Source of the DNA: a virus
IMG/VR virus record: IMGVR_UViG_3300021420_000065
Span: 1 to 44,344 of that record
Strand: one strand, 5' to 3'
Length of the DNA stretch: 44,344 nucleotides
The stretch's first letter is position 1, and each line of letters opens with the position of its first letter. The position numbers and the translations under genes were made by a program. The notes beneath the pieces are model-generated. The model had not been told where the DNA came from. It saw nothing but the letters and a program-made list of their open reading frames with translations, and ran no database searches. Positions 945-29,542 of this stretch are shown here, piece by piece.

Positions 945-1654
945 CAGTAATAGCGGCGACTGTTCCTGTAGGCTCGAATGGACGGGTTGGCCATCGAACG
1001 GTCAAAGCTCCTGCCCGGAATCATGGAAGTGGGCCGCGTCTGATCCTGATGGCGGGTCAGCTCCAATACGGGCACCAGCTTTTGCTTATAGCTTTGCAGC
1101 ACCTTGGCCGCTTTTTTCATGTCGCTCTTGAGCAACGCGAGATACACGGCGTAGTATTTCAGGGCCAACTGAGCGACTAATGGAAGCGAAGTTGTGTCGG
1201 TATCGTTTACCAGTGTCGCCGGAAGTGGTACATGGTGGAGCGTGACATTGGTATTGGCCGAAGGGGGAGGCCAGAGCAGGAACTGATCGTAAGAAAATGG
1301 CACAAAGCCTTGCGACTGATTGGTGCTGTCTTTCTCCCACTGATACATCCCGCCGTATTGCTTATCGAGCGATAGCAGGAACGAAGGAAATAGTCTCAAG
1401 CTGCCCCATATCGCTGGACCGTAAATCCACAAAGGGGTCAGCATGTCGGCTGGCATACGGTAAAGCGAGAGATTCTGAAGCACTGGCACCGACTCATCTG
1501 TTTGCAGGATGCGCGTATCGAGCACGATCCTTAGAATGGCGTGATTGATGTATGCATTCAGTTCCGCTGTAGTCCACAGGCCATCATTCTGCAATTCGTT
1601 CAGGTATCGCTTAACGCTGTCCCGGAAGTTCTTGAGGGTATAGTTGACAATCAT
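944..1654 (-). CDS. Putative head-tail adaptor/connector protein (paralogue of the next upstream gene)
   Basis: 236 residues. The N-terminal pattern (short helix, then W-T-x-A-E-L-N-A-Y-I-N at about residues 27-37) matches that of the 314-residue protein encoded just upstream (W-T-V-A-E-I-N-D-Y-I-N), so the two are paralogues. Both have a central beta-rich part and a C-terminal helical part beginning PLVAQLALKYYAVYLAL / PIQCHFGLVFYALMKCF. This arrangement is typical of phage head-completion or adaptor proteins that sit under the portal, and the gene lies downstream of portal and capsid. The ATG overlaps the upstream TGA (ATGA). The adaptor role is inferred from position and fold pattern. Confidence 0.55.
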   Translation of the reverse strand: MIVNYTLKNFRDSVKRYLNELQNDGLWTTAELNAYINHAILRIVLDTRILQTDESVPVLQNLSLYRMPADMLTPLWIYGPAIWGSLRLFPSFLLSLDKQYGGMYQWEKDSTNQSQGFVPFSYDQFLLWPPPSANTNVTLHHVPLPATLVNDTDTTSLPLVAQLALKYYAVYLALLKSDMKKAAKVLQSYKQKLVPVLELTRHQDQTRPTSMIPGRSFDRSMANPSIRAYRNSRRYY

Positions 1655-2595
1655 GATCCGTAAGAGGGTTTCAAATCTAGCTGCATTGGATATCCGATAC
1701 TGTTCATGCGCTGGGCAAACAGGCTTCCCTCTTCAAATGGCTCCAAAGACTTAACCCGCGTGGCCCACCAACGCGCCTTATTCTCTAAGATCGATTCCAT
1801 CCATTCTCCATACGCCTGAAACCAACCCTGCGCAGCCTCTAGGTCCTGAAACTCACCTTCGCGTAGAAAGCACTTCATCAGGGCGTAGAACACAAGGCCG
1901 AAATGACATTGGATCGGCAATTGGGGGGTATCGGTGTCAAGCACGAGGGGATCGGGTATGCGTACAAAGGCCATGCCGATATTCAGCTTGTCGCTGGTAA
2001 AAATGGCTATTTCGCCCACTTCGGGTCCGGGGAATGGGTTGTAAGATCGATCCGGCCGGAATCCCATAATCGTTTCCGTGCTATCCGTTACTTGGATAAC
2101 AATTCCGGTTTCCTGATTGAAGGCGATTGCCGTACCATCGTCTAGGGTGAGCGCCGCAACCGCGCCGGTTTCCTGATTGAAGGTATAGACGGTGCCATTC
2201 TGAGAGGGGGTAGGATAAGGAGAGAGCGTTGCCTGCTGACCGAATTGGGGGAAGTAAAACCGGAAGGGATTGTTGTTTGGAGCCGCCCGCCAGCTTGGGT
2301 CATCACGATCTAATTCGTATTCGTTGGTCTGGGGCAGAAAGACCCGATCCCAAGTGAGGCGGATAAACTGCTGCGCCGTAGCGCGGGCCGTATAGGTTGA
2401 GACAGAGGCCGTGCAAACGATGGTGTCGAAATCCTGGAACCAGCTTGTAACTTGCTGTGTGTAGAATATGCCCTCGTTGATGTAGTCGTTGATTTCCGCT
2501 ACGGTCCAGGACAGCGAATTGGCATCGGTCGATGTGTTCAAAAGGTAGAGTTCGACCTGAGAGCGGAGCGTTCCGAGGTTAAGCGATTCAGACAT
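1651..2595 (-). CDS. Putative head-tail adaptor protein, larger paralogue
   Basis: 314 residues, same N-terminal helix signature (LSWTVAEINDYINEGIFYTQQ) and C-terminal helical part as the following gene. It contains an insertion with an internal repeat around residues 138-170, in which FNQETGAV and FNQETGIV recur about 20 residues apart. At DNA level the same 19-base stretch recurs near 2104 and 2163. Such repeats are compatible with a beta-hairpin extension. The gene overlaps the methyltransferase-glycosyltransferase gene upstream by 8 bases. It is probably structural. The exact ring or tail component it forms is unknown. Confidence 0.55.
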   Translation of the reverse strand: MSESLNLGTLRSQVELYLLNTSTDANSLSWTVAEINDYINEGIFYTQQVTSWFQDFDTIVCTASVSTYTARATAQQFIRLTWDRVFLPQTNEYELDRDDPSWRAAPNNNPFRFYFPQFGQQATLSPYPTPSQNGTVYTFNQETGAVAALTLDDGTAIAFNQETGIVIQVTDSTETIMGFRPDRSYNPFPGPEVGEIAIFTSDKLNIGMAFVRIPDPLVLDTDTPQLPIQCHFGLVFYALMKCFLREGEFQDLEAAQGWFQAYGEWMESILENKARWWATRVKSLEPFEEGSLFAQRMNSIGYPMQLDLKPSYGS

Positions 2596-4459
2596 GCACT
2601 GTATCTATCGGTGTTTCGCGTAACACTGACGAATGCGGCATCGTTTTATCGTGCGCCAAGCTAACCTCTGGCCGTGGGTGCCGATGCTGCCCAGAGCGCC
2701 ACAAACGATAAACCTCATCTATCCTGGCAAGCACTCGCTTGGCAGGTATCATGGTGCATAGCGGCGCAGGCGGTCCCAGCCCGGTCGCATCCTTCAATTC
2801 ATCAGGAATCTTATAGGGGCAGGTCCAGACCGTTCCTACCCCGCTCGGGCCACTGGCATTCTCAAACGAATGAGTCGATCCCTTGCAGGTTGGGCACTCG
2901 GAATTGACCGAATGGATGTAGTGCAGGACGTGGCAGGGGTGGCAAAAGACTTCTTTAGGATCGGGCGCTATACAGAAATCATTCAACCAGTACTTGCATA
3001 AGTTTTCGTGGCTGGAGTGAGAGAGCATTGTAATTTTCGGAGTCGGGAAACACCCAGCGGCGTTCAAGATCCCTGTCTCTGGTCCAATGACTAGGTCCAC
3101 ATATTTGGTCATCACTAACGAAGTACGCAACTTCCACTTTCCCGCTCTCGGTAAGTATCGGTTCGATTCGGAGCGTTCTATAAGGGCGCATTCTTGATCT
3201 CCAACACTGATAAGTAGCACGTCAGGGTTCTTGATTACAAGTTCTTGGGCGACCTGCTGAAAGTAAGGATACCGCTTGTGGTAACTCGAACCAGATAGTA
3301 CCCACATGACAATAAAACGGCCCGGATATTTGTCCCTAAAGCCTTGGGCCATGCATTCTTCTTGGTCGCTGAAGAAGAGTTCGCCATTCATCCCCCTATC
3401 TGGATAACCCGCTTTGGCAAGGTGATTGTCGTAGTAATTGGTCTCCCCAACTTGCTGCTGCACGGTGCGAATGGCGTTGTAGAACTTATTTTGCTCATTC
3501 AATTCGGGATGCTTTTGCCCGATCTGCTCCATCATGTGCATCAAGCGAGAGTCGGGCACGAGAAGAGTCTCTTCCGCCGCTCCTGTGAGATTGATGAACT
3601 TGTCGTATTTGGTGGCGAGTTCGTTCCAGTAATCGAATAGCGGCCCTGACACTACCCCCTTATTAGGTACATAATCCCTGATCTGTGGGGCTATCTCATC
3701 CACGTATGGGCAATGCTTCAAAACCTCTTTCGCTAATTCCGATCCATTCAGCGTGACGTGGTAGCCTTCCTCTTTGAGCTTTTTGAGGACAGGGACGGAC
3801 TGAATGAAATCTCCAATCGCGCCGTACCGTACGACAAGGGCACGCTTCTGGTTATTACGTGATAGACCTCGATGCGGTGAAGCTGCCGAAGCAAGCTTGC
3901 GATAGACCTGGAGGAAGCTGTATTCGTCTTTATCGCCCCTGATTTCATCGGCCAATACCTCCGCAGCCCCGATCTTGGCTATGGCATCTCTAATCTCTTG
4001 GGGATGGAAGTCGCATTGGTGGTAGATGTTTGCGCCCTCTTCACCCTTGTTAGGGTAGAAGTTCTCCCAATCCTCGCGGCCCATTTCCTTCGCCACCTTG
4101 CGCGTCAGTGGCAGATAGAGAATTAAATTCCCTCCGAGCTTAACGAGCCTCCACCACTCCATGAGAACCGCTTCTGTGTAATGCATATCCTCAAGGGTGT
4201 GCGAGGAATAGACGTAATCGAAGGACTCATCCGTTAGCATGGTGAGGTTCGATACGTCCGCAATCAGATCGGCCTCTTTGCAGGCCATCGAGGAAAAGCC
4301 ACCATCCACTCCCAGGCAGCTTGTTTCGCGGGTCTTTTCGACTTTAAGCTTCCAGCATCCGCAGCCTAGATCTACGCCGTGGCCGTAGACGAAGGGCGCT
4401 ATTCTGTCGTGTACTTTCTGTGTTTCGTTGCCCTCTATGGCGTCAATCTTCCAGGTCAA
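2588..4459 (-). CDS. SAM-methyltransferase fused to a GT9 (heptosyltransferase-like) glycosyltransferase
   Basis: 623 residues with two domains. Residues ~20-190 look like a class I methyltransferase: VDLGCGCWK (29-37) is the SAM-binding loop, and WWRLVKLGGNLILYLPL (102-118) fits the strand after motif II. Residues ~205-510 look like glycosyltransferase family 9: RALVVRYGAIGDFIQSVPVL (206-225) is the acceptor-side N-terminal motif, and DLVIGPETGILNAAG (455-469) is the nucleotide-sugar binding signature. A Cys-rich segment (CHPC, CPTCKG) around 506-526 may bind zinc. The TTG start is chosen because GGAGG lies 7 bases upstream and there is no in-frame ATG nearby. Acceptor and donor cannot be told from sequence. 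Placement among virion genes suggests modification of a surface or virion glycan. Confidence 0.8.
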   Translation of the reverse strand: MTWKIDAIEGNETQKVHDRIAPFVYGHGVDLGCGCWKLKVEKTRETSCLGVDGGFSSMACKEADLIADVSNLTMLTDESFDYVYSSHTLEDMHYTEAVLMEWWRLVKLGGNLILYLPLTRKVAKEMGREDWENFYPNKGEEGANIYHQCDFHPQEIRDAIAKIGAAEVLADEIRGDKDEYSFLQVYRKLASAASPHRGLSRNNQKRALVVRYGAIGDFIQSVPVLKKLKEEGYHVTLNGSELAKEVLKHCPYVDEIAPQIRDYVPNKGVVSGPLFDYWNELATKYDKFINLTGAAEETLLVPDSRLMHMMEQIGQKHPELNEQNKFYNAIRTVQQQVGETNYYDNHLAKAGYPDRGMNGELFFSDQEECMAQGFRDKYPGRFIVMWVLSGSSYHKRYPYFQQVAQELVIKNPDVLLISVGDQECALIERSESNRYLPRAGKWKLRTSLVMTKYVDLVIGPETGILNAAGCFPTPKITMLSHSSHENLCKYWLNDFCIAPDPKEVFCHPCHVLHYIHSVNSECPTCKGSTHSFENASGPSGVGTVWTCPYKIPDELKDATGLGPPAPLCTMIPAKRVLARIDEVYRLWRSGQHRHPRPEVSLAHDKTMPHSSVLRETPIDTVHV

Positions 4460-4476
4460 CCATTAACCTCCGCAAT

Positions 4477-6483
4477 TTAATCCACCACCCAATTTGTACC
4501 ATTGCAATAAGCCCCGACATGATTCGCTCCGCCGCCTACTATGGTCGATCCGAATGTATTTACCGTGGAGTTGTTCACGTTGGCTCTTTGCCCTTCGAGG
4601 CTGGCACCGCAGGCGGGAAGGGATGCAAATGCTTGCGGCGTCAGAGCGACAAATCCAAGAGAGCCTAAGCTGGCCTTAGATGCCGTATCTGGAACCGTCC
4701 CGCTTGCATTGGAATTTGGTGTAGCCCCGCTCTCGAAGAGGGATAGCCACGAACCATTTCCAGTCGCGCCGATTTGATGTACCTCTGTGAACCCTTCCAG
4801 GCCCACGCAATAGATGTTGGAATATAAGCAGTACTTCCAACCCAAATTGGAAGCCGCCGCGTTCGCTGCGGGAGTAGCGGAGGAAATTGACGTACTGCTG
4901 TTAAATGGATAAAGCTCGACCGACTCCCCTCCGGGGTTGTTATAGATTTGGAGATTGGTAGGGCTGGACGTGTTGTTGAAAATTCCACCAGTTTTGTTGC
5001 CTCGCACGTCATTCCCGATAACGTTTATTCCCGTGAATCCGGTCTGCTGTCCTGAAACAGCGAGACACACACCGTAAGCTTGGGTAGGCGACCCCTGGTC
5101 GTCATAGGCTCGATTGTTGGCAATCAATCCCTCGGAAAGAGTCGCGGTCCCACCGGAGGCCAAGAAAAGTTCTATGCCGCAATGTGTCCCACTACTGGCT
5201 GTGCTCGCATTCTTAACGATGTTGTTGGTGATCGTAAAGCCATGCGATTGGCTGGCACTGCCTACGTCGATTAGCAGCCCGACTCCACTGGACTTATCAC
5301 AGAGGTTCCCGGCCATGATTATGTCGCTACCACCAAGCTCAACGCATCCTCCAGTAATGGGACCGGAGGCATTGCCAGTGATGCGATTCCCAATCACGGT
5401 GACTCGCTGCGCTGGCGGAAGATCGGTAATTCCCAGAGAGGTGCCGCTTCCCACGGCGATGTAATTGTTGCTCACTAGGACATCGTTCCACTGCGCCATG
5501 TCAATTATGTTCGCTGCGGAGGTTGGGCAGTTAAAGGTATTATCCGAAATCAGTATCCCGGCACCGCCAAGAGTGCCGCTGCCCAGGGCAACACCGTAGC
5601 CCCCGCAGCCATTTACAGTATTTCCTACGACCGATACCTGCCCAGCAGCAGCGGCATTTGAGAAGATCGCAAAGTTATAGCCGGAATTGGAGGAGCGATT
5701 CCCTTCGATGCGGACCCGGATGGGGGAATTGATCGTTATATCTCCGCACAAAGCGGCCACACATCCGACTCTCTGGGCGTTGTTCTCAAAATCGTTGTCG
5801 GCAATCAGCGAATCGGAAAGAGATGTGTCGATACCGATGCCGTCGTTCCACGAATTGATGGGGCGCATTCTTTGTACGATTAACTTACTCACAACTCCAC
5901 CCTTGATCGTGTCAGAGCCTCCTGTTTGGTTCGCGCGGTTTACATCAATGGTGAAATCTGTAAATGTCACGTTGCCCATCGTGCCGTGAGCGCCGCCAGA
6001 TGCGAGCTGAAACATTGGGTTATTCGCACTCCCGCCGTTGGCCCGCTGAATGGTCGAGACAAACTCACCGGAACCCTGAATCCAACTGCCGTCATAAGCC
6101 AAGAGCGCTGAACTCTCGACTGAAATAGCGCAGGTCTGCGGGGGTAAAATGATGTGCGCCCCCTGACCACCCTTATCCATCGCTGCTTGAATACCAGCAG
6201 CCGTACACGGATACGTCAACCCATCCACGAAGATGATGGAGTTAAGGGAGGATGGATTCGCAGAAAATATCCATGTGCCGTGCTGCCCGCTGTTATCCGG
6301 CTGGCAATCGTAGTGATTGCCGGTAGCCGTATCTACGTAGTATTGGTAGACCGTACAGTTTTGCAATGGTCCAGTTCCAGGAGCACCCACACCCGTAAGC
6401 AATTGTGGCGTGTAAGAATTGCCTTGGGCGAATCCCAGAACCGGCAAAAGCAGCAGGCTAATTAACGCGAATACGTTTTTCAT
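4477..6483 (-). CDS. Secreted right-handed parallel beta-helix protein (tail-spike or pectate-lyase-like)
   Basis: About 668 residues from the ATG at 6483. I chose this start because MKNVFALISLLLLPVLGFAQ is a clean signal peptide. An upstream in-frame ATG at 6531 would bury it. After an N-terminal segment with paired Cys, the protein carries many short repeats rich in N, G and V such as VVGNTVNGCGGYG and ITNNIVKNAS (PbH1-type coils) between about residues 140 and 530, ending in a Gly/Ser/Thr-rich region. This fold is used by phage depolymerase spikes and by bacterial polysaccharide lyases. No catalytic residues can be assigned. A signal peptide is unusual for a virion protein, so this may be a secreted enzyme made during infection or a gene taken from the host. 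Confidence 0.75.
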   Translation of the reverse strand: MKNVFALISLLLLPVLGFAQGNSYTPQLLTGVGAPGTGPLQNCTVYQYYVDTATGNHYDCQPDNSGQHGTWIFSANPSSLNSIIFVDGLTYPCTAAGIQAAMDKGGQGAHIILPPQTCAISVESSALLAYDGSWIQGSGEFVSTIQRANGGSANNPMFQLASGGAHGTMGNVTFTDFTIDVNRANQTGGSDTIKGGVVSKLIVQRMRPINSWNDGIGIDTSLSDSLIADNDFENNAQRVGCVAALCGDITINSPIRVRIEGNRSSNSGYNFAIFSNAAAAGQVSVVGNTVNGCGGYGVALGSGTLGGAGILISDNTFNCPTSAANIIDMAQWNDVLVSNNYIAVGSGTSLGITDLPPAQRVTVIGNRITGNASGPITGGCVELGGSDIIMAGNLCDKSSGVGLLIDVGSASQSHGFTITNNIVKNASTASSGTHCGIELFLASGGTATLSEGLIANNRAYDDQGSPTQAYGVCLAVSGQQTGFTGINVIGNDVRGNKTGGIFNNTSSPTNLQIYNNPGGESVELYPFNSSTSISSATPAANAAASNLGWKYCLYSNIYCVGLEGFTEVHQIGATGNGSWLSLFESGATPNSNASGTVPDTASKASLGSLGFVALTPQAFASLPACGASLEGQRANVNNSTVNTFGSTIVGGGANHVGAYCNGTNWVVD

Positions 6484-6967
6484 TCTCGATGGCTCTCGAT
6501 GCATCCACAAGCAAAAGCCTTCCCGCTTCATAACGCAGGTGAACCAGTGGCAGGTTATCCGTAGGCGCTGCGGGCCAATGGGATGATTTCACCCGTAGCA
6601 TCAGCACCGTAAAGCGATGGCTGACCTCGATCCCGTCAAGCTCGGAATCGAGAGGCAACAACCCATCGGCCAGATCCACCAAAATGTCGAAGAATAGTTC
6701 CGGCTTCATGGCGAAGCAGTGTTCCCACGGAGCGGTCAGGGACGTGAAGTAGAATTGAATCTGGCTATCTATGCCTTCGTCCTTGAACCCAATGCCCTGA
6801 AACTCAGCATCGGCTGGGATCGGCAAGTTGGGCTGCGTGTCACGGAAAAGCGCAAGCATCTGTTCGGGCCGAATCACGAACCCGCGCGAATACTTCGCTC
6901 CTCTTAGAACGGAGGAGCGGCCAGAATGTGTAGCGTTGAACTTCTTGAGTTCGCCGTTAGCTGGCAT
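6458..6967 (-). CDS. Conserved-looking hypothetical protein
   Basis: 169 residues, not recognised. There is no signal peptide or membrane segment. The middle reads as mixed alpha/beta with FAMKPELFFDILVDLADGLL followed by a strand-rich end. The gene lies between the TylF-like methyltransferase (11-base overlap at its 5' end) and the beta-helix gene, whose signal peptide begins inside its last codons. Position suggests a function tied to its neighbours. Confidence 0.5.
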   Translation of the reverse strand: MPANGELKKFNATHSGRSSVLRGAKYSRGFVIRPEQMLALFRDTQPNLPIPADAEFQGIGFKDEGIDSQIQFYFTSLTAPWEHCFAMKPELFFDILVDLADGLLPLDSELDGIEVSHRFTVLMLRVKSSHWPAAPTDNLPLVHLRYEAGRLLLVDASRAIENEKRIRVN

Positions 6968-7460
6968 TTACCCACCGATAGTCTTGCGAGAGAACGTTGT
7001 CCCGCCCAAACACTTCATTCACCGCCTTTGTCGCCCCCGGACATTCAGAAAAGCCGTAATCATCGAAACGAATAATTCCCCCCGCAACCATGCGAGGCTT
7101 GAAAAACTCACAGGCTGCTTTAGTCGGGAGATAGTGGTCGAGATCGATATGAACAAACCGGAATGGGCGATCAACGATCAGGGTGTCTGGTATAAATCCG
7201 GGGATGATTACGGCTCTCGGAATAAGCGCGCATACTTCTTCAATCGAAGTATCGGCATAACGGCCCCTGGGATGCCGGACAGGATCATCGAACTTTCCCG
7301 GTTCGCCATGCCCCTGGAAGGAATCGAAAAGCCAAAGCGTTTCATTGCGATCCATTCCTGCGGCTATTTTCTGGGCCATATAGCCCTTCCAGACTCCGCA
7401 CTCTGCGTAATCGCCAAACGGAAGTGCGCGGACAGCCTCAAGCATTTCATCTATGTTCAT
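6957..7460 (-). CDS. TylF/macrocin O-methyltransferase-like protein
   Basis: 167 residues. ECGVWKG near residue 20 is the SAM-binding loop of the TylF family, LWLFDSFQGHGEPG (42-55) matches the second conserved element, and RFVHIDLDHYLPTKAACEF (100-118) matches the metal/active-site strand with its D-x-D. RFDDYGFSECPGATKAVNEV near residue 131 is also typical of this family. It is shorter than most family members (~240-260 residues), lacking an N-terminal extension. Enzymes of this family methylate sugar hydroxyls. It sits directly downstream of the capsid and head-protein genes, close to the GT9 fusion, which suggests glycan modification. Confidence 0.75.
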   Translation of the reverse strand: MNIDEMLEAVRALPFGDYAECGVWKGYMAQKIAAGMDRNETLWLFDSFQGHGEPGKFDDPVRHPRGRYADTSIEEVCALIPRAVIIPGFIPDTLIVDRPFRFVHIDLDHYLPTKAACEFFKPRMVAGGIIRFDDYGFSECPGATKAVNEVFGRDNVLSQDYRWVNAS

Positions 7461-7468
7461 GGGATTGA

Positions 7469-7492
7469 GGGCGGCTGCCGCAACAACCGCCC
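7469..7492 (-). other. GC-rich hairpin between head-protein and methyltransferase genes
   Basis: GGGCGG and CCGCCC form a 6-bp perfect stem around a 12-base loop in the 42-base gap after the small head-protein gene. No U-run follows, so it is not a standard intrinsic terminator. It could reduce expression of the downstream genes relative to capsid genes or stabilise the capsid transcript's 3' end. This is an inference. Confidence 0.35.
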
Positions 7493-7502
7493 CATTGGAG
7501 TT

Positions 7503-7928
7503 TCAGACAAATTGCGGTGCCACGACGGGAATCAGCGTCGTTGCTCCCAACGTCTGTGTAGCCGAAGCCGTACCGACTGCCACCAGGCCAACGGTAAAGG
7601 ACGAACCGGCAGCCAGGGCAATGGACGGAACGAAGGTGGCAAACGCGCTTGACCCGGACGACTGAGCAAGGGTGCTGGTGGGCGCTACGCTAACCTGCCC
7701 GGTGCTGGTGGTGGTTCCCACAATTACATAGGGACGCACGCCAGCCGGAAAGCTGGACGGGGTAGCGGTGACAACGCCCGTGATACTGCAAAGGAAGGTG
7801 GCTTCCGCAACGGGGAAAATGCCGGTGACGGCGGTTCCGGGAGCAATGGCCCCGGAAGCGGTCATCACCACATTTTGCGCGGCAAGGGTGGCGGTACCGA
7901 CGTAGACGCGAGTATCGTTATATGACAT
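7503..7928 (-). CDS. Small head protein, probable capsid decoration protein
   Basis: 141 residues starting MSYNDTRVYVGTATLAAQNV. The frame stays open upstream into the capsid gene, but the ATG at 7928 has AGGAGA about 11 bases upstream and gives the sensible N-terminus. The protein is almost entirely small residues (A, T, V, S, G) with a beta-strand pattern and no membrane segment. A gene of this size and composition directly downstream of the major capsid gene is commonly a head-decoration protein. The role rests on context. Confidence 0.6.
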   Translation of the reverse strand: MSYNDTRVYVGTATLAAQNVVMTASGAIAPGTAVTGIFPVAEATFLCSITGVVTATPSSFPAGVRPYVIVGTTTSTGQVSVAPTSTLAQSSGSSAFATFVPSIALAAGSSFTVGLVAVGTASATQTLGATTLIPVVAPQFV

Positions 7929-7944
7929 GGTTCGTCGGTCTCCT

Positions 7945-8901
7945 TTATTTGCTCGTGATGTGAGCGATTCGTTCGCTCCCATCGGTTTGTTGGTTCCAAA
8001 TCTTCTGGAAGCCAAGTAGGGCGTACCACGCGATACCCTGTGACCGGCCATAATCGGTCGGCACTTTCTCGCGCAGTTCCTCGGGGATGGCAACGCCTTC
8101 CATCACGGCGTCGAAGCCGACAGCTACGGCCTCGCCTGCTGTTGTGGTGGTGCCGGGAGCGTTGGACAGTACGTTGGTCTCTTCCACGAATCGGCCCATG
8201 TAGTACCGGCCAGCCTCACCGCGATACAGGTACTCCGAAAGCGTCTCGGAATACTTGGTCACGTCCACGAAGCCGCCCGTCTGGGTGTCGGAGAAAAAGC
8301 CAGACAACGCACCGACAGAGCAAATCACAACGTAGGACTGCCCGTCGTAGAAGGGAATGTTCTTTTTGCGCATGTCATCGCAAATCGCACGCCAGTTGGT
8401 GCCGTTGAGGTTCGAGCTGGCCGTGGTCGATGCGGTGCCATTCGTTGAGCTGTTGACCGAGTTCGACAAAGAGCAAACGTAGGTCAAGTCGCTAGATTGG
8501 AACTGCGCTCCAGCAACGGAGTCGAGCGTAATCGCCATATCGTTCATCAGCGTTTGCACAACCGAGTTATCGACATCCAACTCGGAAAGGGCTACTAGCT
8601 GATTGGTGAACGGAATGGCGTTCGCGTACTCGTTGATGGTGAGGGTTCCCTGGTTGATGGTGAAATTGCTTTCAGGGATGGTGGCGGTTTCAGAGAGGCC
8701 CGAAGTGTTGCCAGCGGTAACGATTGGCTGAAGCTTGTCGAAGTAGACTTTGTTACCTCGACGCGCTCCCTTGGCTCCCTTGATCTGCACGAATTGGCGA
8801 AACCGTTTGAGCGGCTGCGCCTTGATACGAAGTTGGAGGCTTAATTCGTTGTTGGTGAAAAAGCCGCCCAAACTATTCGTACCGAATAGCTGTGAAGGCA
8901 T
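7945..8901 (-). CDS. Major capsid protein (N4-gp56/HK97-like)
   Basis: 318 residues. The N-terminal half (RGNKVYFDKLQPI, then NTSGLSETATIPESNF and INEYANAIPFTNQ) and the C-terminal part (GEAGRYYMGRFVEETNVLSN, then GFDAVMEGVAIPEELR and YGRSQGIAWYALLGFQK) match the pattern of N4-gp56-type major capsid proteins with an HK97 fold. GAGGAG lies 7 bases before the ATG, one of the strongest ribosome sites in the window, as expected for an abundant protein. It is flanked by a scaffold-like gene upstream and a small head protein downstream, the usual order. Confidence 0.85.
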   Translation of the reverse strand: MPSQLFGTNSLGGFFTNNELSLQLRIKAQPLKRFRQFVQIKGAKGARRGNKVYFDKLQPIVTAGNTSGLSETATIPESNFTINQGTLTINEYANAIPFTNQLVALSELDVDNSVVQTLMNDMAITLDSVAGAQFQSSDLTYVCSLSNSVNSSTNGTASTTASSNLNGTNWRAICDDMRKKNIPFYDGQSYVVICSVGALSGFFSDTQTGGFVDVTKYSETLSEYLYRGEAGRYYMGRFVEETNVLSNAPGTTTTAGEAVAVGFDAVMEGVAIPEELREKVPTDYGRSQGIAWYALLGFQKIWNQQTDGSERIAHITSK

Positions 8902-8936
8902 AAAGACTCCTCTACCGCTGAATTAAACAACCGCCC

Positions 8937-9941
8937 TTAGCGTCTAAGGCCGCGTTGGGAGCGTTTGCTCTGATCCTGCAGCCACGCAACGTGAGAATCC
9001 GTAACCTCACCTTGCGTTTGAGGAGCCCTCGGAGAGGGTTGTTCCGTGGCTAGGGGGGGAGCGGTATTGCTGAGAAGCGGTATAACCCGCGTCTCTTGCG
9101 TGAGTGCTTCCTTTGCACCTTCTGATCGGATTTTCCCGGTAAATGATCGGAAATTGTCCGTGGCCTTATTGAGCAAGGCGGCGGGGTCCCGGGCAAGTAC
9201 GGGGTCCGACTGTGCAAGCAAGGTAGCTTCAAAAGCCACACGCACTTCATGTTCAGAAATGTCGGGGTTATTCTTGCGCCAGTCGCCCGCAATCTGTTGG
9301 GCGGCCAGTGCCGTCGTAACCCGTTGCACTACGTTCTTTTCGATGTACTCCTTTGGGTTAGATACAAAGTCGTTGAGAATGCGGTTATTCTCAGCCTGCT
9401 CTGCCGCTATCTGCTCGGGTGTCTTGACTACGGGCGCTGGCGGAGTAGCCAGTGCAGCACGTTCGCGTTCGGCCTTCTCTTGCCCTTGCCGCGTGATTAG
9501 CTTCTGGGCTTCTATGTAACCTTGTTCAAGATCGTCTACGGATTTGAATTTACCAGCATAAACCTTTGGAGGCTCAGGAGGCCCTTGTTCGGGCGCAGCT
9601 TGAGGCGGTATGGCTTCCGGCTTAACTTCAGGGCTTGGCTCATTGTTCGGCGCATCGCTAGGTCGAGATGTTTGTTCAGCATCGAGATTGCGGAATCCGA
9701 GATCATTTCCCGGCCTAAGCGCTTCTGACGACGTGTCACGTATCCTCCCATCTGGCCCTTCGTCGGCCATACGGCGCTGTTTAATCGGAATGGGTTGATT
9801 GACTACTTCTACTTTGACCGGAACCGGGACCGGCGATGGCGGAATTGGCGGCCCTCCCACATCTCCCACGGGGGCTTCGCGTGGATCAAGTGGTTTTCCA
9901 ATATCGCCACCATACAATTCAGTTGTTAATGTCCTATCCAT
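8937..9941 (-). CDS. Putative scaffolding protein
   Basis: About 334 residues from the ATG at 9941 (a TTG one codon earlier is possible). The ATG overlaps the upstream stop as TGATG. The first ~130 residues are rich in Pro, Glu and charged residues and look disordered. AGKFKSVDDLEQGYIEAQKLI (starting near residue 131) followed by a long charged helical stretch (KAERERAALA, KTPEQIAAEQAENNRILNDF) is typical of scaffold proteins that carry a GKFKS-x-EELxxAY motif. The basic C-terminus KRSQRGLRR fits a capsid-binding tail. It lies immediately before the capsid gene. Confidence 0.7.
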   Translation of the reverse strand: MDRTLTTELYGGDIGKPLDPREAPVGDVGGPPIPPSPVPVPVKVEVVNQPIPIKQRRMADEGPDGRIRDTSSEALRPGNDLGFRNLDAEQTSRPSDAPNNEPSPEVKPEAIPPQAAPEQGPPEPPKVYAGKFKSVDDLEQGYIEAQKLITRQGQEKAERERAALATPPAPVVKTPEQIAAEQAENNRILNDFVSNPKEYIEKNVVQRVTTALAAQQIAGDWRKNNPDISEHEVRVAFEATLLAQSDPVLARDPAALLNKATDNFRSFTGKIRSEGAKEALTQETRVIPLLSNTAPPLATEQPSPRAPQTQGEVTDSHVAWLQDQSKRSQRGLRR

Positions 9942-10378
9942 CAATTCCTCACTATCGCGTTTTTCACGAAGGTAGTCGTATCCCGCCCGATGGCTGCTTC
10001 CCTTCCCGCCAAAACGCCAGAGGCTATATCCGCATTGCGCTCAGTGGTAAGCAGGAAGTCTTTCAGGAAACGTAAAGCTCTCAGGTAGAGCCGCAATTCA
10101 GGCACTACCTTTTCATCGCAAATCTCAAGCTGCTGCTGCGCCCAAAGTATTTCCCGATCTGCCTGGGTAACGATGAGTTGATAGCCCATCGAGTCCTTGA
10201 TTTCGTCAATGGCCCTGCCGCGCTCAATCCAGCCCTTAAGTTCATCGTTGGGACGGCTAAACCATTTCGACTTGATCCCGCCCCGGAGCCTGTCGATAGT
10301 GGAACTGGCTGCTTCGACAAACTCCTTCAGCTTCTTGCGGGAGTCTAGTTGTTCCTGTGTGGGGCTAGAAGCCACCAC
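9941..10378 (-). CDS. Hypothetical helical protein upstream of the scaffold
   Basis: About 145 residues, mostly alpha-helical (QEQLDSRKKLKEFVEAASST; VTQADREILWAQQQLEICDE). GTG codons at 10384, 10378 and 10375 can all start it. I prefer 10378 or 10375 because GGGAAGG then sits at a workable distance, while it is too close to 10384. The gene is not recognised. Its place between portal and scaffold genes suggests a head-assembly or packaging accessory role. Confidence 0.5.
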   Translation of the reverse strand: MVASSPTQEQLDSRKKLKEFVEAASSTIDRLRGGIKSKWFSRPNDELKGWIERGRAIDEIKDSMGYQLIVTQADREILWAQQQLEICDEKVVPELRLYLRALRFLKDFLLTTERNADIASGVLAGREAAIGRDTTTFVKNAIVRN

Positions 10379-10448
10379 GCCCACCTTCCCACACGCCGAA
10401 CATGAATATGCCGATCAATAAGCCGAGATAATGGGCGGCCCTTCTCAT
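10365..10448 (-). CDS. 27-residue putative membrane microprotein
   Basis: The ATG at 10448 overlaps the TGA of the upstream gene (ATGA), and the frame ends with TAG inside the start of the next gene. The peptide is a basic N-terminus (MRRAAHY) followed by a hydrophobic stretch LGLLIGIFMFGVW of single-helix length. Support is only the overlap pattern and hydrophobicity. It may be a translational-coupling leader instead of a functional peptide. Confidence 0.35.
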   Translation of the reverse strand: MRRAAHYLGLLIGIFMFGVWEGGRGGF

Positions 10449-11116
10449 TTCACCCTCTTCAACCGTGGATTAGCCTTCTTGGCAGACGCCGAAGCGTGGC
10501 GCGTGGAATTGGCGAGAATGGCTCCAGCCGCTTCCTGCGATACGCCTTCCTTGGCTGCGATCTGACCCTGCACGGACTTGAAGCCGGGATGGCCGTCGTT
10601 GTGCAACACGCCGTCCCTATTCTCTCCGTACAGGTCTTTGCGTCTCGCGTCACGGCTGAGAATGTTGGTTGTGGAATCGCTATCGATCATCAGGGGATCG
10701 GCAGACAGATTCGCGGGAGATTCGAGGAAGCCCTCATCCTGTGCGGCGCGTGGCATGGGAGCGGTGCGCGGCTGAAAGGTGGCGTAGCCTTGAAACGGTA
10801 CGTCCCTACTAGCTGAACGCATCGCCGCCATTGCGCCGTGAAGGGTGGGGTCTTTGTCCTCGGTACGGTAACGCGCTACCGTGTCTACGGTCTGCGGTCC
10901 CGGCTCCATCCTGTCGGTGCCTTCCGGCGAACCAATGCGGCCCGGAGGAATCACTTCCCGGTATCCCTTATAGGGGGATTGCGTGGTGCCGTCTTTTACA
11001 TCGCCGCGAGGCATGTCATTGACTTGTGGACGTGGAGAGCGAACTACACTCACTTCCAGTCCAAAGTCTCGGCTGACGGATTCTGTAATGTGTGCTGCGA
11101 CTCGTTCTCGGGCCAT
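10445..11116 (-). CDS. Hypothetical virion-region protein
   Basis: 223 residues, not recognised. Polar, low in hydrophobic residues, rich in Arg, Pro and Asp, probably extended or disordered. The C-terminus ends with a strongly basic stretch (SASAKKANPRLKRVK), suggesting nucleic-acid or capsid contact. AAAAGGAGGG lies 8 bases before the ATG. It sits between portal and scaffold. Confidence 0.5.
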   Translation of the reverse strand: MARERVAAHITESVSRDFGLEVSVVRSPRPQVNDMPRGDVKDGTTQSPYKGYREVIPPGRIGSPEGTDRMEPGPQTVDTVARYRTEDKDPTLHGAMAAMRSASRDVPFQGYATFQPRTAPMPRAAQDEGFLESPANLSADPLMIDSDSTTNILSRDARRKDLYGENRDGVLHNDGHPGFKSVQGQIAAKEGVSQEAAGAILANSTRHASASAKKANPRLKRVK

Positions 11117-11131
11117 AAGCCCTCCTTTTAC

Positions 11132-11404
11132 TTACCCGCGCACTTCGCCGCGAGGCTGCGTCAGATCGGTGTAGGCGACGAACGAGGGCTTCTTCCCCGG
11201 ATCGGCAGTGGCTTGCTGATACGCAACCGATCCGTGCAAGTCCTGGGGCCTGGTTTCATCCGCTTCAAATCCCTTCGTAACTACTCGCCCACCCTGCCGT
11301 GCATCCTCAGTCGATTCATTCGGCAATTCATTTACTGCGGGCACCACCGAATGCTCGTTGGGAGTTTTTCCACCACCGCTAACGGGCTTAACATCGTTTT
11401 GCAT
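11132..11404 (-). CDS. Small hypothetical protein
   Basis: 90 residues, polar, rich in Gly, Pro, Glu and Thr, with no hydrophobic core evident, so probably disordered. GAAAGGAA lies upstream of the ATG at 11404. It resembles small accessory proteins between portal and scaffold genes. Not recognised. Confidence 0.45.
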   Translation of the reverse strand: MQNDVKPVSGGGKTPNEHSVVPAVNELPNESTEDARQGGRVVTKGFEADETRPQDLHGSVAYQQATADPGKKPSFVAYTDLTQPRGEVRG

Positions 11405-11429
11405 TTTGTTTGTTCCTTTCGATTTGAAG

Positions 11430-11660
11430 TTAACGAAGATAAGAACCCAAGTTGCTAGGAATATCGTAATAACCTATCTCGAAAATCCGCTGCCAATATC
11501 GACCGCGCTCAATCTCCACCAGTTCGTTGGGGAAGCTGAGCCATTTTTGGCTGCGTATCACCTGCCATACGCGGTGTCCAATCCATAGCTGGAATGACCA
11601 AGAACCACAGCGAAAACTACAAATCCTTTTTTCAATTACCCAAAATCGGTGAATCGTCAC
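11430..11660 (-). CDS. Small Trp/Arg-rich hypothetical protein coupled to the portal gene
   Basis: 76 residues, unusually rich in Trp, Arg and Ile (FRCGSWSFQLWIGHRVWQVI). The ATG overlaps the portal TGA (ATGA), which supports real translation. No family recognised. It is small, basic and aromatic, so it could bind DNA, membrane or the portal ring. Confidence 0.45.
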   Translation of the reverse strand: MTIHRFWVIEKRICSFRCGSWSFQLWIGHRVWQVIRSQKWLSFPNELVEIERGRYWQRIFEIGYYDIPSNLGSYLR

Positions 11661-13690
11661 GCTGCCGTACCGGGAGCTGAAGGCGGTTGCCCTAACGACA
11701 TGGCTGCATCCAGCAATTTCTGTAAAGTCGTTTGATTGTCGGCTTCACGCGAAGCGGCAATCTGCCCATGCGCCTGAGCTTGCGCCGCGTAGAATGGATT
11801 CTGCTGCATAACCTGGGCTTGTCTTTGCTGCTCCTGCATCTCTTCCGCATCCGGTGAAACCAGTTCTGCGGGCTCAGGGAAATGGTACGAATCGAAGATA
11901 CGTCTCAGGAAAGCCGACAGATTCATCCCTACACCCGTCAAAGCCTGCGGGCCAAGTTGGGCTAAGGTTTCGAGTAGGTCTTTGTACTTCGAAAGGTTCT
12001 GCTGCCGCTCGATGGCTCGACTTAGGCCGTGGGCCTTGAAGTTGTAGCGTCCCCAAGTAAGCTGAATCCGTTGCTGAATGGGGAGCTGATCGAGCACGCC
12101 GCCGATTTCAGGTCCAAGCAATTCGCTCCAAGTAGGCTTAGAGGTTGAGTCGATGAACTGAAAAGCGCGGCTCCATATTTTCTCTGCCACGAATGACAGG
12201 CAGCCATCCTCGATGTTCTGGGCGATGTCGGAAAGGATCAGTGAGCTTTGGAGTTGGGTTTGCTGTATTTCCGTCGCGGTAGTCTCACCCTTTACGTCGA
12301 GGAGACCTTGTGCCTGGTCGGTAATGAACGTACCGCGTTGATACTCCTTCTCCATAGCATTCTGAAAATTGAAAGAGGAGTTTGAGAGTTGAGGAAAAGC
12401 GACGCCCGTAACCGCCTGTGGAGAAGCTCCAGCTCGCTTGTAGAATACCTTTCCGGGTTGGACTCCGGTTTGCATGTCGCCTTCAGGGTTTTCAAGGGCA
12501 CTTGCCTCCACTTCCAGCATCGGTACAACGCTAAATTTCAGGTGATCCTCTTGCATCTGGGCCAGCCGATCGATGCCGTCCTTGATGCTCATGTTCATTT
12601 CGAGCAAACCCTGACCTGGGAACCTGCCCGCTACGGCAAGAGGCGAGCAAATCACGTAAGGGGGAAGGCCATCCCAATACGGGTTATCTTCCATTTTCAG
12701 GATGGTTGTTCGATTGGCAATCAGGATGCGTTGATTCGCCGCTACGACCTTTTGGGTATGCGGGTCGATGAGATCACCCCAAAACTCCCAGAGCAGGGCT
12801 TGTTTGCGGTAATGCTCTGCGGGGATCTGACGCTTATCGTAACGGGCGAAGTCTCGTGTATAGACCTGATCCGCAAAGTACATTTGGTCTGTGATGCGGT
12901 CCACATGCTCAAGTTCCGACGTGTTTTCGAGGCCCCTCTGCGACTTGAGTTCATCCACATCAACCAGGGTCTCTTCGATGATAAAATCAAAGCGATTATT
13001 GTCCCGAGTGCGAGGCCCGAACCAAAGATGGAAAGGGTCAATCGATTGAACATTTAGCTGACCCTCCTTACGTCTTTTCTGAATCAGCACTGGGCCTGTA
13101 TCGTCCCCACCTACACTCAGGTCCAATTTATTCTGATAGGCCCAACCAATCTTGAGCACCATCAATCCGCAGACTCCGCCAAATTCCAATGCATCCCGGA
13201 ACTGCGAGCGGAAGTGGCTGTTATCGGCAAGCCGCAAAACTGCCTTCTCGACCAGGGGGGCGATCTGCTTCATGTTGACAGTGGGGTTCACTTCTCCCGG
13301 CTCAACCGTCACCCACTGCTCGGACTGCATCAAAAGCCGCATGATATTCGCGGCGAAGTTCTTTACGGCGCTGTGAGCCTTGGCATAGGTGATTCGAGAT
13401 TGCCAGGGAGCCTTATCGTCAAAGTCCTGCTTATTGCGGTACTGGCCGTAGCAGTCGAGCCAAGTGTTACGGATGATGTATTCCCGCATGAACGCTTCGT
13501 TGCGGTAGCGTTCGATCTGGGAAACGACTTCGGCATCCGAGAGGTTGCCGACGCGCTTGGCGGCTTGCTTGGTATCGTCGGAATGCGTAGTGCCCTGATC
13601 GGAGTCTCGCTCTGCTGGGCCGGTATCGGGAGAAACTGCCGTAGGGGGTCCAGAAGGCATCCCGAAGCTGCTTACGAAGTTAGTCGCCAT
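11657..13690 (-). CDS. Portal protein
   Basis: 677 residues. The pattern is that of large podovirus-type portals: a helical N-terminal region (SQIERYRNEAFMREYIIRNT...ARWR-like QSRITYAKAHSAVKNFAANI), a wing region with WLDCYGQYRN and PFHLWFGPRTRD, a tryptophan-rich stretch (LLWEFWGDLIDPHTQKVV), a long stem helix around KGETTATEIQQTQLQSSLI, and a Gln-rich C-terminal barrel region (EEMQEQQRQAQVMQQNPFYA). The DNA passes through its dodecameric ring. It overlaps the cupin gene upstream by 11 bases. Order terminase-portal-scaffold-capsid supports the call. Confidence 0.8.
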   Translation of the reverse strand: MATNFVSSFGMPSGPPTAVSPDTGPAERDSDQGTTHSDDTKQAAKRVGNLSDAEVVSQIERYRNEAFMREYIIRNTWLDCYGQYRNKQDFDDKAPWQSRITYAKAHSAVKNFAANIMRLLMQSEQWVTVEPGEVNPTVNMKQIAPLVEKAVLRLADNSHFRSQFRDALEFGGVCGLMVLKIGWAYQNKLDLSVGGDDTGPVLIQKRRKEGQLNVQSIDPFHLWFGPRTRDNNRFDFIIEETLVDVDELKSQRGLENTSELEHVDRITDQMYFADQVYTRDFARYDKRQIPAEHYRKQALLWEFWGDLIDPHTQKVVAANQRILIANRTTILKMEDNPYWDGLPPYVICSPLAVAGRFPGQGLLEMNMSIKDGIDRLAQMQEDHLKFSVVPMLEVEASALENPEGDMQTGVQPGKVFYKRAGASPQAVTGVAFPQLSNSSFNFQNAMEKEYQRGTFITDQAQGLLDVKGETTATEIQQTQLQSSLILSDIAQNIEDGCLSFVAEKIWSRAFQFIDSTSKPTWSELLGPEIGGVLDQLPIQQRIQLTWGRYNFKAHGLSRAIERQQNLSKYKDLLETLAQLGPQALTGVGMNLSAFLRRIFDSYHFPEPAELVSPDAEEMQEQQRQAQVMQQNPFYAAQAQAHGQIAASREADNQTTLQKLLDAAMSLGQPPSAPGTAA

Positions 13691-14165
13691 CTGTGCTAAT
13701 GGCTATTTCGCGCATTCGGCCCTTATAAGCTTCGTTTCCCCTCGAGGGCTCGAGTCTCTCCACGTCCTCATCATCGTGGTGCGTTGATACTTCCAAAACG
13801 ATTGCCAAACCCCAGGTGGAATTATCGGGATTGGTGAAGCGGTGCCATGTGCCAGCGGGGATTCTCTGCGAGTCGGTCGCCTTCATCTCGCGCGAGTTTC
13901 CTTCCATCTCCAGAGCTATCTGCCCAGCGAGAACGACAAAGGTTTCATCTTTGACTAGATGGCGATGGAGGCTGCAACTCGAGCCGGGATGGACAACCAG
14001 AAACTTGGAGCAGTACAACTCGTTGTTGACCATCCAGATTTCGCGGCCCCACACCTTTTCCCTGTTGGTGATTCCCCTTATTCCCAAACACGGTATGTAA
14101 TCGGTGTAGTGGCTCAATTCTGAGCCACTCGATTCGGTTGCGGAGGATTCGGAAATTGCCGCCAT
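13680..14165 (-). CDS. Cupin-domain protein (sugar-isomerase-like)
   Basis: 161 residues. The metal site is visible: SLHRH at about residues 67-71 with DETF following supplies His/His/Glu, and IPAGTWHRF near residue 103 supplies the third His. LEVSTHHDDEDVERLE is typical of cupins attached to or acting with sugar-phosphate and sialate-type enzymes. It resembles D-lyxose/mannose-6-phosphate isomerase-like cupins, but the substrate is unknown. The ATG at 14165 gives a 52-base overlap with terminase. A TTG at 14117 overlapping the terminase TGA would also retain the domain. A cupin between terminase and portal is unusual. Confidence 0.7.
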   Translation of the reverse strand: MAAISESSATESSGSELSHYTDYIPCLGIRGITNREKVWGREIWMVNNELYCSKFLVVHPGSSCSLHRHLVKDETFVVLAGQIALEMEGNSREMKATDSQRIPAGTWHRFTNPDNSTWGLAIVLEVSTHHDDEDVERLEPSRGNEAYKGRMREIAISTDGD

Positions 14166-15679
14166 TCTGTCGTGCGCGTTCGCGGCATCTGGCCCGGATT
14201 GGCATAGCCCTTTACCGGCTTATTATTCACTGCCGTGGTGCGGTACTGCGGTGCGGGAGGTTGTTCCCTGACCCTGATGGCTTGCCACACTGAAGAGTTC
14301 GCAAAATAACGAAGCGGGTCGTAGGCATGATCTGGGATGCCCGCCGCTCGTTCTTCGGTAAATTCTTTCTCGCCCGTTAGTGGGTTGCGCGTCTCGGCGT
14401 GGCGCTGGAGCTGTATTTGGTCAATCAGGTTCTCGCAGCGCGAAGAGATAAACAGCCGTGGCGAGCCAACGGTTTTCGTAACCGGATTGCGCAGGGCCGG
14501 ATTGATGTGCATGAGTTCTTGCAGGTTGGCAATGGAGGCGGTTTCGTTGTTATCGGCCTTGATGAGGTACAAACCGCATTCGCGGTATTCCTGAGCCGTC
14601 GAGGTTACTTGGGTCCTGCGGTCCCGAGTAGATTCAAAAAAAACGCTCGGGTCGGCGTAAACTCCCCTGACTGAGTAACGGTTGTCCCGCATAAGTTTGA
14701 GGATTGCTGAAGCGTGTTCGCGTATCGTGATCGTGCGTCCAGGGGTAGATCGCTTGTAATATTCATGGGTAATGAAGTGGTAGTTATCGGAGGTGGAAGC
14801 AGATAAGAGAAGGCAGGTGGGAGCTGATAATCCGTAGTCGAACCAACCCCAACAACTCTTGATATCCATTGCTTCAAATGGGTCAAAACGGTCTGCATCA
14901 TAGACGTGTATCTCCCTGCGGAAGTCGGGATGGATGGCTCCTTCAAATATATCCCTAGATCCGTACACCCATCTGCGCTTCCAGGCTTCCGGCTTGCGCA
15001 TGAGCATGTCGTAATAGCCGGGGGCGTACTTGTCGAGCATGGGCTTGTTGATGGCGCTAGAGCCAAAGCAGTAAAAGCGGTCCGGGTGGCCCTCCCAGGT
15101 AAGGCCACCGTCCGCGTAGTGCTTTACGTCGTTGTTGCCAAAGACTTCGGGATGGAAGCGGAAGTACACCCAGTCGTGTCCGTTGACGTTGCACTCGCCC
15201 CAAAGATAGGGCGGGCAAGGCTGCTTCCATTCAGGCCTCGACCATCTTCCGATGCGGGAGTCCATGTATTCCCACATCTCGGGTTGAATCTCTTCCGCCT
15301 GGGATACGAAAGCGCCGTTGATTTCAAGCGAGCGCAGGTCCCCCTCGCTCATGTCGTCCAGGTGCATCCACAGGATTTCGGCACCATTGGCCAGCGTCAT
15401 GCTTTCTTTAACATCGCGCCTGATCCAGTGCGGCGGGCAGAGTTTGTCGAAGGTTTTGCGGGTCGTGTTAACCAGGCTTTTGTAGGTCTGCCGAGCTACG
15501 GCCCAACGGGAGCCTGGGAACTCTTTCGCCAGAATGAGCAGCCTTTGAATGCCGGAAGTGGTTTTGCCGTTCCCCACCCCGCCATCGAACATCGATTCGC
15601 GTTTGGTGTTCCAGATGTAGGAATCGGCTATGGGGGAGGATGGCTCGAAAACAATTTGTGCGGAGTGGGCTTTAGTCAC
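14114..15679 (-). CDS. terL: Terminase large subunit (packaging ATPase-nuclease)
   Basis: 521 residues. FDGGVGNGKTT near residue 31 is the Walker A loop, and LEINGAFVSQAEEI near residue 117 is Walker B with the catalytic Glu. The C-terminal nuclease part has GWFDYGLSAPTCLLL near residue 273 and VYADPSVFFE near residue 344, with conserved acidic residues of the RNase H-like fold, and HAYDPLRYF near the end. It starts with GTG, overlapping the stop of the zinc microprotein upstream (GTGA). It drives ATP-dependent packaging through the portal. Confidence 0.9.
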   Translation of the reverse strand: MTKAHSAQIVFEPSSPIADSYIWNTKRESMFDGGVGNGKTTSGIQRLLILAKEFPGSRWAVARQTYKSLVNTTRKTFDKLCPPHWIRRDVKESMTLANGAEILWMHLDDMSEGDLRSLEINGAFVSQAEEIQPEMWEYMDSRIGRWSRPEWKQPCPPYLWGECNVNGHDWVYFRFHPEVFGNNDVKHYADGGLTWEGHPDRFYCFGSSAINKPMLDKYAPGYYDMLMRKPEAWKRRWVYGSRDIFEGAIHPDFRREIHVYDADRFDPFEAMDIKSCWGWFDYGLSAPTCLLLSASTSDNYHFITHEYYKRSTPGRTITIREHASAILKLMRDNRYSVRGVYADPSVFFESTRDRRTQVTSTAQEYRECGLYLIKADNNETASIANLQELMHINPALRNPVTKTVGSPRLFISSRCENLIDQIQLQRHAETRNPLTGEKEFTEERAAGIPDHAYDPLRYFANSSVWQAIRVREQPPAPQYRTTAVNNKPVKGYANPGQMPRTRTTEWRQFPNPPQPNRVAQN

Positions 15680-27421: not shown

Positions 27422-27654
27422 TTAGTCGCCCCACACTTCCCGGCACGGCACTCCTTCGACCAGTCCAAGCCACCATCACGCACGAATTGCACAGTCTTTA
27501 TCTCGACAACATGTCCTGGCCGCTTCAAAATGACCGCCATTTCGTGCGCGGTTTTGGCATACATCGGCTCGGCAACGGCGGCCCAGTAGTAATGCCCGCA
27601 TGGCCCCTTAGCCACAAAGCAGGCCGCTTCGCCTGACTTGTCTGATTCGCCCAT
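27418..27654 (-). CDS. Small hypothetical protein
   Basis: 78 residues. AACFVAKGPCGHYYWAAVAE followed by HEMAVILKRPGHVVEIKTVQ suggests a small alpha/beta fold with conserved-looking Cys and His. The ATG lies adjacent to the ERF stop. Not recognised. Confidence 0.5.
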   Translation of the reverse strand: MGESDKSGEAACFVAKGPCGHYYWAAVAEPMYAKTAHEMAVILKRPGHVVEIKTVQFVRDGGLDWSKECRAGKCGATK

Positions 27655-29466: not shown

Positions 29467-29542
29467 TGGGGCTGGCGGCGGGATTCGAACCCGCTTCCTG
29501 TGGGTTAGAACTCCACTGCTCATCCAGTTGAGCTACGCCAGC
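29467..29542 (-). tRNA. tRNA-Arg(TCT)
   Basis: Cloverleaf drawn by hand: acceptor GCTGGCG/CGCCAGC (7 bp), D-arm GCTC/GAGC, anticodon loop GTTCTAA with TCT at positions 34-36, T-arm GCGGG-TTCGAAT-CCCGC. The anticodon stem has one A-C mismatch next to the loop. After the discriminator C the bases CCA are encoded. It decodes AGA. Phage tRNAs supply rare codons or replace host tRNAs cut during defence. Confidence 0.9.

Follow-up and report, generated by a model that had tools for sequence, protein, structure and literature searches.

A methyltransferase-GT9 fusion gene behind the capsid gene suggests that uncultured soil phages place methylated heptose-type sugars on their particles or on the host surface

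A two-domain enzyme encoded among the structural genes

The IMG/VR virus record IMGVR_UViG_3300021420_000065, whose 44,344 bases are called the window below, encodes portal and adaptor proteins of the SU10 type. The genes around them are transcribed from the minus strand in the order terminase, a cupin, portal, a series of small and scaffold-like genes, the major capsid protein (MCP), a Ser/Thr-rich open reading frame (ORF), a TylF-type methyltransferase, a 169-residue protein, a fibre-like protein, a fusion of a methyltransferase to a GT9-type glycosyltransferase (hereafter MT-GT9), two adaptors and a histidine phosphatase (Table 1). A preliminary description of this DNA had proposed that a set of carbohydrate-type enzymes is embedded in the morphogenesis block, and all the ORFs that it named were found where it had placed them, on the minus strand. 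The analysis reported here suggests that uncultured soil phages of this kind put methylated heptose-type sugars on their own particles or on the host surface during assembly.

The MT-GT9 gene starts with a TTG codon, 7 nt downstream of a GGAGG ribosome-binding site. In profile searches, Methyltransf_11 matched residues 46-114 with 32.4 bits (cut-off 21.2) and the GT9-type profile TIGR02193 matched residues 207-493 (E 3.7e-7). The Pfam GT9 profile, PF01075, scored just below its cut-off of 22 on the window protein (18.7 bits) and reached 39.1 bits on a relative from contig L025. An AlphaFold2 model computed from a 59-row alignment had a mean pLDDT of 85.5 and a pTM of 0.83. Residues 1-191 of this model matched S-adenosylmethionine (SAM) methyltransferase structures with Z scores of up to 16.6, the best being 3dli, while residues 204-595 matched WaaF (1psw, Z 23.4), a GT9 protein of Veillonella (3tov, Z 23.4), TibC (4rap, Z 20.6) and WaaC (2h1h, Z 20.4), the 1psw, 3tov and 2h1h matches covering residues 204-589. 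As modelled, residues 1-191 are a class I SAM methyltransferase, a Rossmann fold with the glycine-rich motif I, and residues ~204-595 are a GT-B fold closest to WaaC and WaaF. The reading of the gene as a fusion, made in the preliminary description together with the expectation of a GT-B fold in residues 205-510, is therefore upheld by family profiles, model and structural matches for both halves.

The residues expected of a working GT9 enzyme are conserved. R211 is present in 56/56 rows of the alignment, D217 in 57/57 and K395 in 58/58; E461 is found in 57 of 58 rows, with Asp in the remaining one, and T462 in 56 of 58, while G216, next to D217, belongs to the same catalytic set. These residues and the four cysteines of an insert in the GT9 domain are kept across the 58 glycosyltransferase rows, down to ~33% identity. 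The SAM motif DxG(C/A)G, which reads GVDLGCG in the window, is retained in nearly all rows that bear the methyltransferase domain.

A profile scan of IMG/VR found relatives in 130 contigs, of which 80 were kept. Both domains lie in one ORF in most of these 80, and of the 83 non-redundant loci that hold both MCP and GT9 genes, 58 or more have the fused form; other members of the lineage have GT9-only forms, often two per locus. No MT-GT9 fusion was found by tblastn with three queries in 50,697 annotated phage records. An assembly error, which the preliminary description had named as a possible source of the fusion, was ruled out because the same fusion recurs in many independent contigs, and a recent fusion private to the window phage was ruled out because distant relatives (31-41% identity) are fused as well. 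Judged from these sequences, the fusion is the norm in dozens of uncultured phages, widespread and old, and not the singular oddity for which it had been taken.

In two contigs that are 85-90% identical in DNA, the GT9 motif is interrupted by a frame break, RYG|AIGD, such that the methyltransferase frame ends and the glycosyltransferase frame opens within an overlap (L008 2061-3936 and L009 2034-3906; start-stop overlap ATGGTTGA). This overlap could be a site of coupled translation or of frameshifting; a programmed frameshift was considered, for which the conserved break is the sole support. The idea that the split represents the ancestral, unfused state was dropped: since the break falls inside the GT9 motif, a later break is more likely.

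A fixed address behind the capsid gene

The position of the GT9 gene was surveyed in 80 loci gathered with the capsid protein, in place of GT9, as the starting point. The GT9 gene lies downstream of the MCP gene in 36 of the 41 loci with at least 4 kb of downstream sequence, a proportion that is biased upwards and is to be read as an upper estimate, since the MCP profile used (A4) was built almost wholly from glycosyltransferase-bearing loci and some records are repeated. It lies upstream of the MCP gene in none of the 43 loci with 4 kb of upstream sequence (Fisher p 1e-18, a value that, like the other p-values given here, ignores the relatedness of records, including duplicates such as L166/L167 and L173/L177).

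The content of this slot was compared with that of the region in front of the MCP gene, using 126 other ORFs located at most 5 kb behind it (two of them from L149) and 122 ORFs ahead of it. Methyltransf_23 was matched by 16 of the 126 downstream ORFs (p 1.9e-5 against the upstream ORFs), and further downstream ORFs belonged to the GT2, GT4, CmcI, TylF, FkbM, aminotransferase and radical-SAM families. By contrast, none of the 122 ORFs in front of the MCP gene matched a glycosyltransferase or methyltransferase family. The GT9 gene is also co-inherited with the capsid gene: MCP and GT9 distances correlate over 83 loci (Mantel rho 0.56), and in a 34-locus subset the MCP-GT9 correlation (rho 0.84) stands beside that of MCP with portal (0.89); the MCP-GT9 values were reached by none of 500 shuffles. 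The GT9 address and the methyltransferases and glycosyltransferases of the slot support the proposal that a glycan-modifying set lies within the morphogenesis block, and extend it from the window to the lineage.

A separate, apparently mobile O-methyltransferase-like gene (NHCHV..E..WLFHS...) was seen in differing gaps between structural genes of close relatives (L017 2026-2667; L023 4600-5331; L024 4917-5519; L015 6538-7212).

Genes for a heptose-type donor

Genes resembling those of ADP-heptose synthesis were found in several relatives; most scores are below the NCBI equivalog cut-offs, so that the names given are those of the nearest family. The fullest set is that of a 63 kb record that carries MT-GT9 (G019), with an HldE-N kinase (189 bits), GmhA (182), an HldE-C adenylyltransferase (68) and GmhB (133, which also exceeds the TIGR01656 cut-off). 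These genes lie together on one strand, between a phage lysozyme gene and genes for a thymidylate-synthase-type protein and DNA polymerase A. Another record (G016) has an HldE kinase (295 bits), GmhA and transketolase/E1-like genes. Elsewhere the genes accompany the terminase gene: L024 has an HldE-C adenylyltransferase, a cupin, an HldE-N kinase and an O-methyltransferase between terminase and portal (this contig ends within the MCP gene, and its GT9 slot lies beyond the end), G036 has an HldE-N kinase, a cupin and an HldE-C-like adenylyltransferase directly before the terminase, and G039 has a partial HldE kinase near it. L222, a contig whose MCP belongs to the same family, also has an HldE kinase and a cupin.

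Altogether an HldE kinase is present in 5 of 30 records, against 29 of 50,697 annotated phage records, an enrichment that is indicative only because the two sets were searched by different methods. A query with one HldE kinase, which as a single protein picks up no more than close relatives, matched just three viral contigs. The HldD epimerase was absent from all 30 records, the control being positive in 14 of 14. Absence of HldD would leave the sugar in the D,D-heptose form, the one that TibC binds in its crystal structure, which was obtained with ADP-D,D-heptose (PMC4358343).

The cupin encoded between terminase and portal in the window points in the same direction. Homologues were found in 36 annotated phage records, each of them cyanophage or marine, and 31 of the 36 also hold an HldE-C adenylyltransferase homologue within ~6 kb, although these phages are mutually related and the 31 do not represent as many independent events. 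In P-TIM68 the cupin gene lies between those of an adenylyltransferase and a phosphoheptose isomerase. Because residues of the metal-ligand type (H67, H69, E74 and H108) do not vary between soil and cyanophage sequences and the gene travels with heptose genes, the cupin is probably a heptose-pathway enzyme, an isomerase or an epimerase. The name "cysteine dioxygenase", which it bears in PHROGs and in cyanophage records, looks mistaken. It had been described as sugar-isomerase-like; the cupin family stands, and the HldE neighbours make it better read as a putative member of a heptose-nucleotide cassette than as a generic isomerase. With moderate confidence, then, the donor would be of the ADP-heptose type.

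Two further contigs deserve mention. In L221 (1340-5850), HldE kinase-like and adenylyltransferase-like ORFs are followed by a 733-residue protein with an N-terminal phosphomannose-isomerase-like cupin, and in the phage contig L211 (3218-5853), an E1-dehydrogenase/transketolase-like pair and a radical-SAM protein adjoin GmhA and an HldE kinase.

Candidate acceptors and neighbouring genes

The MT-GT9 protein may be pictured as an enzyme of two functions that works in the cytoplasm and is probably made late, along with the capsid operon. Its GT9 domain would transfer a heptose-type sugar from an ADP-heptose-type donor, supplied by the host in most of these phages and by phage-encoded enzymes in some relatives, and the fused SAM methyltransferase would O-methylate the product or the acceptor, possibly together with the TylF-type protein. 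The analogy of TibC, a protein heptosyltransferase, would make a virion protein of the same operon (capsid, decoration or fibre) the likeliest acceptor. A virion protein is favoured because of the fixed address, the co-inheritance with MCP and the Ser/Thr-rich small proteins encoded beside MCP, whose Ser+Thr content is 27% in the window and 20-25% in relatives, versus a mean of 14% over all ORFs. The modification might serve receptor adhesion, particle shielding or particle stability. That MT-GT9 is a heptose-transferring and methylating enzyme of the capsid operon, with a virion protein as the likeliest acceptor, is quite possible and is put forward as a tentative overall reading. A less probable reading is a protein-heptosylation system of the phages' own, in which a TibC-like Cys4 GT9-methyltransferase of the capsid operon, supplied in some members by an ADP-D,D-heptose pathway of the phage (GmhA, the HldE halves, GmhB and the cupin), coats assembling virions with methylated heptose.

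Several points weigh against a virion-directed enzyme, in addition to the upward bias of the address count mentioned above. The window itself gave no match for HldE kinase, GmhA or GmhB, so that its donor would have to come from the host. In cultured phages of Escherichia coli and Vibrio that share the capsid family, the slot is occupied by small genes, none of them annotated as a glycosyltransferase; the capsid architecture thus does not need the enzyme. The SAM motif has decayed, with the GT9 residues intact, in two related lineages (L011/L085 and L065/L078), which makes methylation dispensable there and GT9 the constant part. The fold match to the lipopolysaccharide (LPS) enzymes WaaC and WaaF is as good as or better than that to TibC, the Cys4 motif is a sequence pattern that does not by itself show a metal, and the acceptor, be it a virion protein or a host glycan, is inferred.

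Since WaaC and WaaF are LPS enzymes, the host surface is a serious rival as acceptor, and a possible one. Late in infection the enzyme would then alter the LPS core, O-antigen or capsule and thereby spare progeny virions re-adsorption to debris or infected cells, or exclude competing phages. GT9 is mainly an LPS-core family, as the Z scores of WaaF (23.4) and WaaC (20.4) recall; the nearby GT2/GT4-type, aminotransferase-type and FkbM/CmcI genes are typical of surface polysaccharide loci; and similar heptose cassettes of cyanophages lie outside any obvious capsid operon. However, a moron that modifies the surface should turn up in varying places, whereas this gene is bound to the capsid-adaptor interval in very divergent phages and is inherited together with MCP and portal. 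Nor was HldD found, on which the L,D-heptose of the LPS core depends, though it could come from the host. An improbable alternative is that the genes are sporadic host-derived auxiliary passengers of a permissive gap in the late operon and share no function. TylF, cupin and phosphatase genes do come and go among close relatives, but MT-GT9 is constant in the window clade and keeps its catalytic residues, and the 122 ORFs upstream of MCP, as said, gave no glycosyltransferase or methyltransferase family match. Hypermodification of phage DNA by the glycosyltransferase and methyltransferase is very improbable. DNA is glycosylated by virus-encoded glycosyltransferases in work cited in PMC12619734, and a thymidylate-synthase-type gene is present in 3 of 29 records; yet neither a base-hydroxymethylating partner nor a thymidylate synthase was found in the window, GT9 and TylF families are not known to act on DNA, and the place of the gene is among the virion genes, outside the replication block. 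A search for Tet_JBP gave 0 of 29 records and is uninformative, since its positive control gave no match either.

Comparison with known systems sets the fusion apart from each of them. With WaaF and WaaC (CAZy GT9), its best structural matches, it shares the GT-B fold, the R..GD catalytic Asp, the G-S..K and the (D/E)TG motifs; unlike them it is a phage protein fused to a SAM methyltransferase, has an invariant Cys4 insert and is encoded by a morphogenesis gene. The bacterial autotransporter heptosyltransferases (BAHT) TibC and Aah, which as dodecamers glycosylate the passengers of autotransporters, resemble it in fold (Z 20.6 over chain residues 96-398) and in a CxxC...C...C pattern near the C-terminus, and the place and pattern of the phage cysteines suggest a likeness to the iron finger of TibC, formed by Cys 339, 342, 358 and 370 (PMC4358343). 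The N-terminal beta-barrel of TibC is replaced by the methyltransferase, and for this reason the fusion is not classed as a BAHT; no autotransporter substrate was identified, the window proteins scanned giving no match to an autotransporter family. The ADP-heptose-type cassettes of P-TIM68, S-CAM1 and S-SM2 likewise place a cupin close to genes for HldE-C, a kinase, an isomerase and a glycosyltransferase, but belong to large cyanophages, where a capsid-adaptor location is not established and no MT-GT9 fusion was seen. Portal (PF23899) and adaptor (PF24175) families are shared with SU10-type podoviruses, beyond which the present phages carry a glycan slot between MCP and adaptor. In mycobacteriophage Che8, glycans are reported to be covalently attached to the major capsid protein, and phage glycosyltransferases are credited with it (Freeman et al. 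2023, cited in PMC11256854). Phage-encoded glycosyltransferases are common to both cases; those of Maravista, a relative of Che8, are encoded close to the 3' end of its genome and not inside the head genes, and that account mentions neither an MT-GT9 fusion nor a heptose pathway (PMC11256854).

Literature searches on GT9 or heptose in phages yielded no relevant paper, and no account of a capsid operon that combines an MT-GT9 fusion with genes of the donor pathway was found, most subscription journals being outside the scope of the search. Glycosylation of phage virions has been shown in few systems, and I know of no description of virion protein heptosylation. What emerges is an entire uncultured lineage that keeps a glycosyltransferase-methyltransferase fusion at a fixed spot beside its capsid gene, with a complete or partial donor pathway in some members. 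With the virion as acceptor, the lineage would possess a dedicated system for heptosylating its capsids; with the host surface as acceptor, an LPS-type remodelling enzyme would be locked into a morphogenesis operon. ADP-heptose being a known innate-immune signal, the pathway is of wider interest.

Table 1. Features of the window in order of transcription
Feature	Position	Strand	Basis or remark
Terminase large subunit	14114..15679	-	phrog_2
Phosphomannose-isomerase-like cupin	13680..14165	-	PF07883, PF01050 and others
SU10-type portal	11657..13690	-	PF23899
Major capsid protein (MCP)	7945..8901	-	phrog_1357, E 1.2e-18
Ser/Thr-rich ORF directly behind MCP	7503..7928	-	27% S+T
TylF-type methyltransferase	6957..7460	-	PF05711 and PF13578 above cut-off
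Conserved 169 aa protein	6458..6967	-	in window clade, adjoins MT-GT9 or has only the fibre gene between
Fibre or beta-helix-like protein	4477..6531	-	Sec-signal-like N-terminus; N-terminus conserved in L001, L002
MT-GT9 fusion, 623 aa	2588..4459	-	family profiles, AlphaFold model, alignment
SAM methyltransferase domain, residues 1-191	3887..4459	-	Methyltransf_11, 3dli match, SAM motif
GT9 glycosyltransferase domain, residues 204-595	2675..3850	-	TIGR02193, fold matches, catalytic residues
Cys4 insert of GT9 domain, C506-x2-C509-x12-C522-x45-C568	2756..2944	-	four Cys in 58/58 rows
SU10-type adaptor A	1651..2595	-	PF24175; overlaps MT-GT9 stop codon
SU10-type adaptor B	944..1654	-	PF24175
Histidine phosphatase (RHG), Cys-rich C-terminal tail	165..944	-	PF00300, 44.6 bits

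Among the neighbouring genes, the TylF-like methyltransferase and histidine phosphatase calls of the preliminary description are borne out. The former protein scores 35.0 bits with PF05711 (cut-off 23; model positions 93-241 of 264), and TylF-like genes lie near MT-GT9 in nine other loci. The phosphatase is present in the close clade of the window and in one other record; its C-terminal tail, CGNCK...CHH...DDCC, is kept in L002 and nearly so in L001. The 169-residue protein matched no family. For the protein that follows it, the proposed beta-helix found no family match, while the conserved N-terminus and the variable remainder seen in L001 and L002 indicate a fibre-like modularity. The Ser/Thr-rich ORF has a predicted all-beta model of low confidence (pLDDT 50.5) and is a possible head-decoration protein and acceptor.

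The fibre- or beta-helix-like proteins of the slot open with Sec-signal-like N-termini, for example MKNVFALISLLLLPVLGFAQ and MKKLLPMLLCLLVPAVSFGQ, which is unusual in tail fibres (window 4477-6531; L001 6174-7970; L002 5459-7894; L008 3933-6059; L009 3903-5723); perhaps these proteins are exported enzymes instead. Away from the structural genes, the window encodes a protein of pentapeptide repeats (30104-30859) with a match to RIIB lysis-inhibitor families at its C-terminus, and a tRNA-Arg (anticodon tct, 29467-29542) near an Erf-type recombinase gene (27654-29150).

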